A DNA stretch of 35,319 nt, taken from assembly GCA_947302975.1 (NCBI GenBank), contig CAMYXA010000008.1, positions 1 through 35,319 of the forward strand. The letters run 5' to 3'. This stretch comes from an uncultured Candidatus Saccharibacteria bacterium. Lineage in GTDB: Bacteria > Patescibacteriota > Saccharimonadia > Saccharimonadales > Saccharimonadaceae. Below, piece after piece: positions 7,110-9,861 of the stretch (the stretch's first letter is position 1; each line of letters begins with the position of its first letter). Under the pieces are notes generated by a model, which saw only the letters and a list, made by a program, of their open reading frames with translations, ran no database searches and was not told the DNA's origin. The position numbers and the translations under genes were made by a program.

Positions 7110-7148
7110 CCAAAAATCCCGACTCTAAGGGGGGTTAAAGTCGGGATT
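7110..7148 (-). terminator. Terminator after tRNA-Gly
   Basis: A 10-bp perfect stem, AATCCCGACT (7115-7124) with AGTCGGGATT (7139-7148), and a T run on the minus strand. It lies 3 nt beyond the encoded CCA of tRNA-Gly and separates it from the lemA promoter. Confidence 0.85.
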
Positions 7149-7150
7149 AC

Positions 7151-7227
7151 TGGTGCGAATGAAGAGACTCTAACTCTCGACCTCTTCCTTGGCAAGGAAG
7201 CGCTCTAAACAACTGAGCTACATTCGC
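7151..7227 (-). tRNA. tRNA-Gly (GCC) with altered D-loop/T-loop contact
   Basis: Cloverleaf reads GCGAATG acceptor, GCTC/GAGC D-stem, CTTCC/GGAAG anticodon stem with loop TTGCCAA (anticodon GCC), variable AGGTC, and T-stem GAGAG/CTCTT; CCA is encoded. Oddities: the D-loop is AGTTGTTTA, giving G18 then U19 instead of G18G19, and the T-loop is TTAGAGT, giving A56 instead of C56. The two changes compensate, replacing the G19-C56 tertiary pair with U19-A56. The other five tRNAs here keep G19 and C56. A TGTTATAAT extended -10 box lies 10 nt upstream (7238-7246). Confidence 0.93.
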
Positions 7228-7270
7228 ATGTGGACTAATTATAACATACTTTCCTAAAAAACTGCAACAT

Positions 7271-9787: not shown

Positions 9788-9861
9788 TGGAGGTGCCGAC
9801 CGGAATTGAACCGGTGTACGCGGTTTTGCAGACCGCTGCGTAACCACTCCGCCACAGCACC
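9788..9861 (-). tRNA. tRNA-Cys (GCA)
   Basis: Acceptor GGTGCTG/CGGCACC with discriminator U and encoded CCA, anticodon loop CTGCAAA (GCA), D-loop with GG, T-loop TTCAATT. The structure is canonical. A TATAAT box (9871-9876 on the plus strand as ATTATA) ends 9 nt before the mature 5' end, so the precursor leader would be only a few bases. Confidence 0.95.

Follow-up and report, generated by a model that had tools for sequence, protein, structure and literature searches.

Avoidance of the G19-C56 elbow pair, with pairing kept, in tRNA-Gly(GCC) of a Saccharibacterium and its class

The tRNA-Gly(GCC) of this Saccharibacterium lacks the G19-C56 elbow pair and retains Watson-Crick pairing between positions 19 and 56 as U-A. 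Our preferred explanation, held tentatively at a probability of roughly 40%, is that this is an essential elongator tRNA reading GGC and GGU in which pair 19-56 must stay Watson-Crick and must not be G-C. The ribosome, RNase P, T-box riboswitches and some synthetases all make contact with the G19-C56 pair. It has been called universally conserved (PMC10495418). We found no description of a natural bacterial swap of 19-56 with compensation in the open-access literature; the sequences themselves are public.

The gene and its surroundings comprise the following features, numbered in the window (the whole stretch of 35,319 nucleotides that was analysed):

7151 to 7227, minus strand: tRNA-Gly(GCC) gene with encoded CCA and discriminator A73 (ARAGORN and Rfam RF00005)
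7206 to 7214, minus strand: its D-loop, AGUUGUUUA (ARAGORN bracket structure)
7209, minus strand: U19, canonically G19, in the D-loop A14-G15-U16-U17-G18-U19-U20-U20a-A21
7167 to 7173, minus strand: its T-loop, UUAGAGU (ARAGORN bracket structure)
7171, minus strand: A56, canonically C56, pairing with U19, in the T-loop U54-U55-A56-G57-A58-G59-U60
7115 to 7148, minus strand: intrinsic terminator with a 14-bp stem and T-rich tail, directly 3' of the tRNA (folding z = -5.35)
7238 to 7243, minus strand: putative TATAAT-like -10 element, 11 bases upstream of the tRNA 5' end (proposed from reading the sequence)

Both ARAGORN and Rfam called the tRNA complete (7151/7154-7227, minus strand), and its RF00005 score of 70.1 bits (threshold 29) was the highest among the window's tRNAs. 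The D-loop AGTTGTTTA and T-loop TTAGAGT yield G18, U19, U54, U55, A56, G57 and A58: G18, U54 and A58 are at their usual places, while 19 is U and 56 is A. The first-pass annotation had reported a compensated U19-A56 pair here and G19 and C56 in the window's five other tRNAs, and both observations were borne out, with both bases changed and Watson-Crick pairing kept. With the strong terminator immediately after it, the tRNA gene brings its transcript to an end there; a scan for a -35 box upstream found no good one. The glycine identity set G1-C72, C2-G71, C35 and C36 (PMC9976931) is present in full. The bacterial discriminator U73 is absent, its place being taken by A73 (window position 7154), which also occurs in the genome's other Gly tRNAs (L019, L039) and in those Gly(GCC) of relatives that were read. 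Among bacterial Gly tRNAs U73 is the norm, with A73 in 239 of 232,109 (PMC6097841).

The source genome is 91% complete, with about 9% missing, and contains 44 tRNAs, of which a single one has the anticodon GCC. A second tRNA-Gly(GCC) with G19-C56, whose presence the first-pass annotation had left as a question, does not occur among the 44. GGC and GGU together account for 52.5 per 1000 codons and 76% of Gly codons, and tRNA-Gly(GCC) is their only G34 tRNA, carrying the third highest codon load by anticodon. As the sole Gly(GCC) gene found and the sole G34 reader of these codons, it is very probably a working, main translation tRNA; judged from codon usage and the lack of another G34 reader, it is very likely expressed, charged and used on ribosomes. 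The claim that the swap is specific to tRNA-Gly holds within the window and fails genome-wide, where tRNA-Ala(UGC) and tRNA-Ala(CGC) are A19-U56. G19-C56 is kept in tRNA-Ala(GGC), tRNA-Gly(UCC) and tRNA-Gly(CCC). The last of these (L039:3-77 of the source genome) has C55 in place of U55, so pseudouridine 55 is not possible there; C55 is also present in Cys tRNAs of some Clostridia.

A pattern search for Gly(GCC) covered 245 genomes of the class, with a match in 204 and none in 41. Among the matches listed, each Gly(GCC) is either U19-A56 or A19-U56, and most genomes have one copy. A looser second pattern applied to the 41 unmatched genomes gave matches that were mostly not tRNA. A covariance model was run on 31 genomes, three of them from another family; in the 28 unmatched genomes belonging to the class it recovered Gly(GCC) in 15, mostly with U38 and all with a non-G-C elbow, and found none in the rest. 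Five congeners that are 94-99% complete (G132, G238, G251, G262 and G271) yielded no Gly(GCC) by pattern or covariance model, reflecting either an assembly gap or a diverged gene.

Pair 19-56 was coded in 76 genomes of the class, giving U-A in 47, A-U in 29, and neither G-C nor a mismatch in any. The covariation of 19 and 56 that the first-pass annotation had proposed looking for in relatives is essentially perfect, without exception, and no relative was seen with only one of the two changes. In the congener G175 the tRNA body is identical over positions 8-61 except at 19 and 56, both of which have changed; altogether three bodies, otherwise identical over 8-61, were each found in both states of the pair. 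The joint change in an identical body, with no single-change genome, argues against chance or sequencing error.

The same pair also varies in tRNA-Ala. In the sampled genomes of the class it is G-C or A-U there, always matched, so that G-C is evidently within mutational reach at 19-56. Of 85 Ala(UGC) matches within the genus of the source genome, 84 carry A-U or U-A; the remaining one, from G215, differs strongly in its body and may lie on a contaminating contig. When TAGC-type tRNAs were surveyed in 45 class genomes, almost every one without C56 was Gly(GCC) or Ala, both of which read GC-rich boxes; a Gly(CCC) and a Val(GAC) made up the remainder.

Related behaviour in the class is shown by 19-56 of tRNA-Ala and by 18-55 and 54-58 of tRNA-Cys. 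The class tRNA-Cys toggles between G18-U55 (37) and A18-G55 (31); mixed forms are absent, the tree implies about 19 changes, and A54-U58 replaces U54-A58 in seven of the A18-G55 forms. The tRNA-Cys of relatives concerned are those on L046, L050, L051, L053, L075 and L104; the window's own tRNA-Cys (9788-9861) is normal.

In the sample of other Patescibacteria 15 Gly(GCC) genes matched; G19-C56 is present in 14 of them and A19-U56 in the remaining one. Sporadic swaps were also seen in G355, G407 and G373, from other classes of Patescibacteria, and in G073 and G063: A19-U56 in tRNA-Gly, tRNA-His, tRNA-Ala(CGC) and tRNA-Val(GAC), and U19-A56 in a Gly(CCC), both bases being changed every time. Beyond the phylum, GTDB contigs were scanned for Gly(GCC) genes whose position 56 is A or U and whose discriminator is not A, giving at least 113 stretches. 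The matches listed come from Clostridia, Bdellovibrionota, Flavobacteriales (Bacteroidota), Labilibaculum, Cytophagales, SAR86 and other Gammaproteobacteria, and Peregrinibacteria, and include the named strain Labilibaculum filiforme 59.16B, which carries the double change. Among them, all 112 Gly(GCC) read by ARAGORN are A19-U56, and all 98 other tRNAs on those stretches have C56. One match, assigned to Saccharospirillaceae, shares its tRNA sequence with a Flavobacteriales match and may be mis-binned. The occurrence of A19-U56 in Gly(GCC) of several phyla, next to tRNAs with C56, indicates that the swap is recurrent and tied to Gly(GCC); it is not peculiar to CPR.

The history of the pair was followed on a tree of a single gene, rpoB, from 76 class genomes and two outgroups. 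By parsimony, pair 19-56 changed about 19 times within the class, a count that horizontal transfer of tRNA alleles may have inflated, the true number then being lower. Pair 28-42 of the same tRNAs, which sits in a plain helix and not in the elbow, served as control; it is TA in 48, AT in 15, GC in 11 and CG in 4 (the two outgroups included) and shows 24 changes. Forcing the elbow pair to the control pair's relative rates costs 15.4 log units (2dlnL = 30.7), and simulations at control-pair rates produced tips entirely free of G-C in 0 of 300 runs at each of three rate scales. The data support selection for a 19-56 pair in Gly(GCC) that stays Watson-Crick and is not G-C.

The main rival is neutral drift after an ancestral loss, a possible account in which constraint is relaxed: an ancestor lost G19-C56, only pairing is selected, A-U alleles drift or are transferred, and G-C has not re-arisen. 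It accords with a nearly saturated number of flips on the rpoB tree, where 20 changes compare with a mean of 24.8 after shuffling, as expected under allele transfer, with the identical tRNA bodies carried by distant families, and with the tRNA-Ala(UGC) of the genus, which is likewise off G-C and toggles between A-U and U-A. It must contend, however, with the frequent G-C of the control pair and with the absence of G-C from 76 tips, unmatched in any of 900 simulations. Moreover, a return to G-C by way of G.U would need transitions only, whereas the observed flips are two transversions, and G-C has been lost from the same tRNA in other phyla too.

An antideterminant role is unlikely. Here, by lacking G19, C56 or both, Gly(GCC) would avoid a factor that reads them; the factor might be a synthetase or an editing domain, C-Ala of AlaRS being one example, or else an RNase or an enzyme that modifies the T-loop. 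Such a factor would tolerate A-U and U-A alike; the AlaRS of A. fulgidus does contact G19-C56 (PMC6451123), and the genome encodes TruB. Against this, the genome's AlaRS has no C-Ala and the enzyme is short throughout the phylum as sampled, TruB takes a pyrimidine at 56 (53-GUUYRANYC-61, PMC7912444), so that A56 forms would escape it and A19-U56 forms would not, and tRNA-Ala in the same genome also has the swapped pair.

Several specific candidates were considered and rejected. The AlaRS of the source genome (L141:10070-12025) is 651 aa long and stops after the editing domain. Loss of C-Ala as the cause fails because a short AlaRS is found in nearly all sampled Patescibacteria, yet the swap is rare in other classes; the loss is thus at most permissive for tRNA-Ala. 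Escape from TruB leaves the A-U forms unexplained, as its consensus accepts U56 (PMC7912444). Avoidance of DTD was dismissed because a search of the genome with an approximate E. coli query sequence found no DTD homologue, and DTD is not expected to act beyond the acceptor stem (PMC6097841). Contact of the elbow with a bacterial (alpha-beta)2 GlyRS does not apply either: the genome's GlyRS is of the dimeric type, and the alpha-subunit motif was not found.

A dedicated non-ribosomal tRNA, like the peptidoglycan tRNA-Gly of staphylococci that the first-pass annotation had offered as a parallel, is highly improbable. This is indeed a glycine tRNA with an altered elbow; however, elbow pairing is kept, the gene is single-copy in most class genomes among the matches listed, and the parallel does not fit the only Gly(GCC) found, which as sole G34 reader of GGC and GGU serves the third most used anticodon. 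The idea is already contradicted unless a second Gly(GCC) lies unseen in the missing 9% or so of the genome. An artefact of sequencing, binning or annotation, which the incomplete assembly behind the window might invite, can be set aside as refuted by the double change in many independent class genomes and other phyla.

For the preferred reading, selection for a pair that is Watson-Crick and not G-C, the property under selection would be a weaker, more dynamic elbow, which A-U would provide in either orientation. Close relatives differ in the orientation of the pair, which makes a base-specific reader of 19-56 unlikely. The elbow contributes to both accommodation and translocation (PMC10495418, PMC4810234), and its destabilisation alters translocation and frameshifting (PMC4810234). 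The strong codon-anticodon pairing of tRNA-Gly and tRNA-Ala has to be balanced (PMC6720975, PMC10853795, PMC7566577). Our best guess at the mechanism is that a weaker elbow offsets strong codon pairing: it would tune accommodation and translocation of a tRNA that pairs with GC-rich codons and carries the smallest amino acid, and so may lower miscoding or frameshifting when GGC and GGU are decoded, a form of balancing that is known from pair 32-38 of tRNA-Ala and tRNA-Gly. It is quite possible, though we hold it with less confidence than the requirement itself, that G19-C56 in Gly(GCC) is actively selected against in several lineages, the elbow serving to tune individual isoacceptors, with its strength adjusted to that of the codon-anticodon pairing. 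The Pro and Arg tRNAs, which also read GC-rich boxes, keep G19-C56, and this counts against tuning; allele transfer could also remove part of the statistical weight. G19-C56 persists in the Gly(GCC) of many bacteria, so the requirement for a non-G-C pair is not universal.

Avoidance of G19-C56 across a class, in a heavily used glycine tRNA and with pairing kept, amounts to a natural experiment on the role of this pair, and matched natural variants with the same tRNA body and either U-A or A-U are available. It suggests that tRNA models would do better to score 19-56 as a covarying pair than as fixed bases. If the tuning proposal is true, an elbow pair taught as universal is an isoacceptor-specific tuning element.

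Compared with a canonical bacterial elongator tRNA-Gly(GCC), the tRNA shares the cloverleaf, anticodon, encoded CCA, G1-C72, C2-G71, C35, C36, G18 and U54-A58; it differs in having U-A (A-U in relatives) instead of G-C at 19-56, and A73 instead of U73. Staphylococcal non-proteinogenic peptidoglycan tRNA-Gly is likewise a glycine tRNA whose D-loop and T-loop are altered. It is an additional copy reserved for that purpose and its elbow pairing is disrupted, whereas here a single Gly(GCC) stands among 44 tRNAs and the pair is compensated; the parallel fails because this Gly(GCC) is the sole G34 tRNA for GGC and GGU and is heavily used. Eukaryotic tRNA-Ala, with unusual 15/48 and 54/58 pairs (Westhof et al. 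2020, PMC7566577), offers a similar isoacceptor-specific remodelling of tertiary pairs in GC-rich boxes; the portion of that work drawn on here concerns other pairs in another tRNA, in eukaryotes only, and does not describe 19-56. In mitochondrial tRNA-Ser(UGA), engineered A19:U56 or C19:G56 established that pairing and not base identity suffices for mitochondrial SerRS to recognise the elbow (PMC10412605). Since A19:U56 restored aminoacylation there, a swapped pair still builds the elbow; those were engineered mutants in one tRNA, whereas the swap in Gly(GCC) is a natural evolutionary state.
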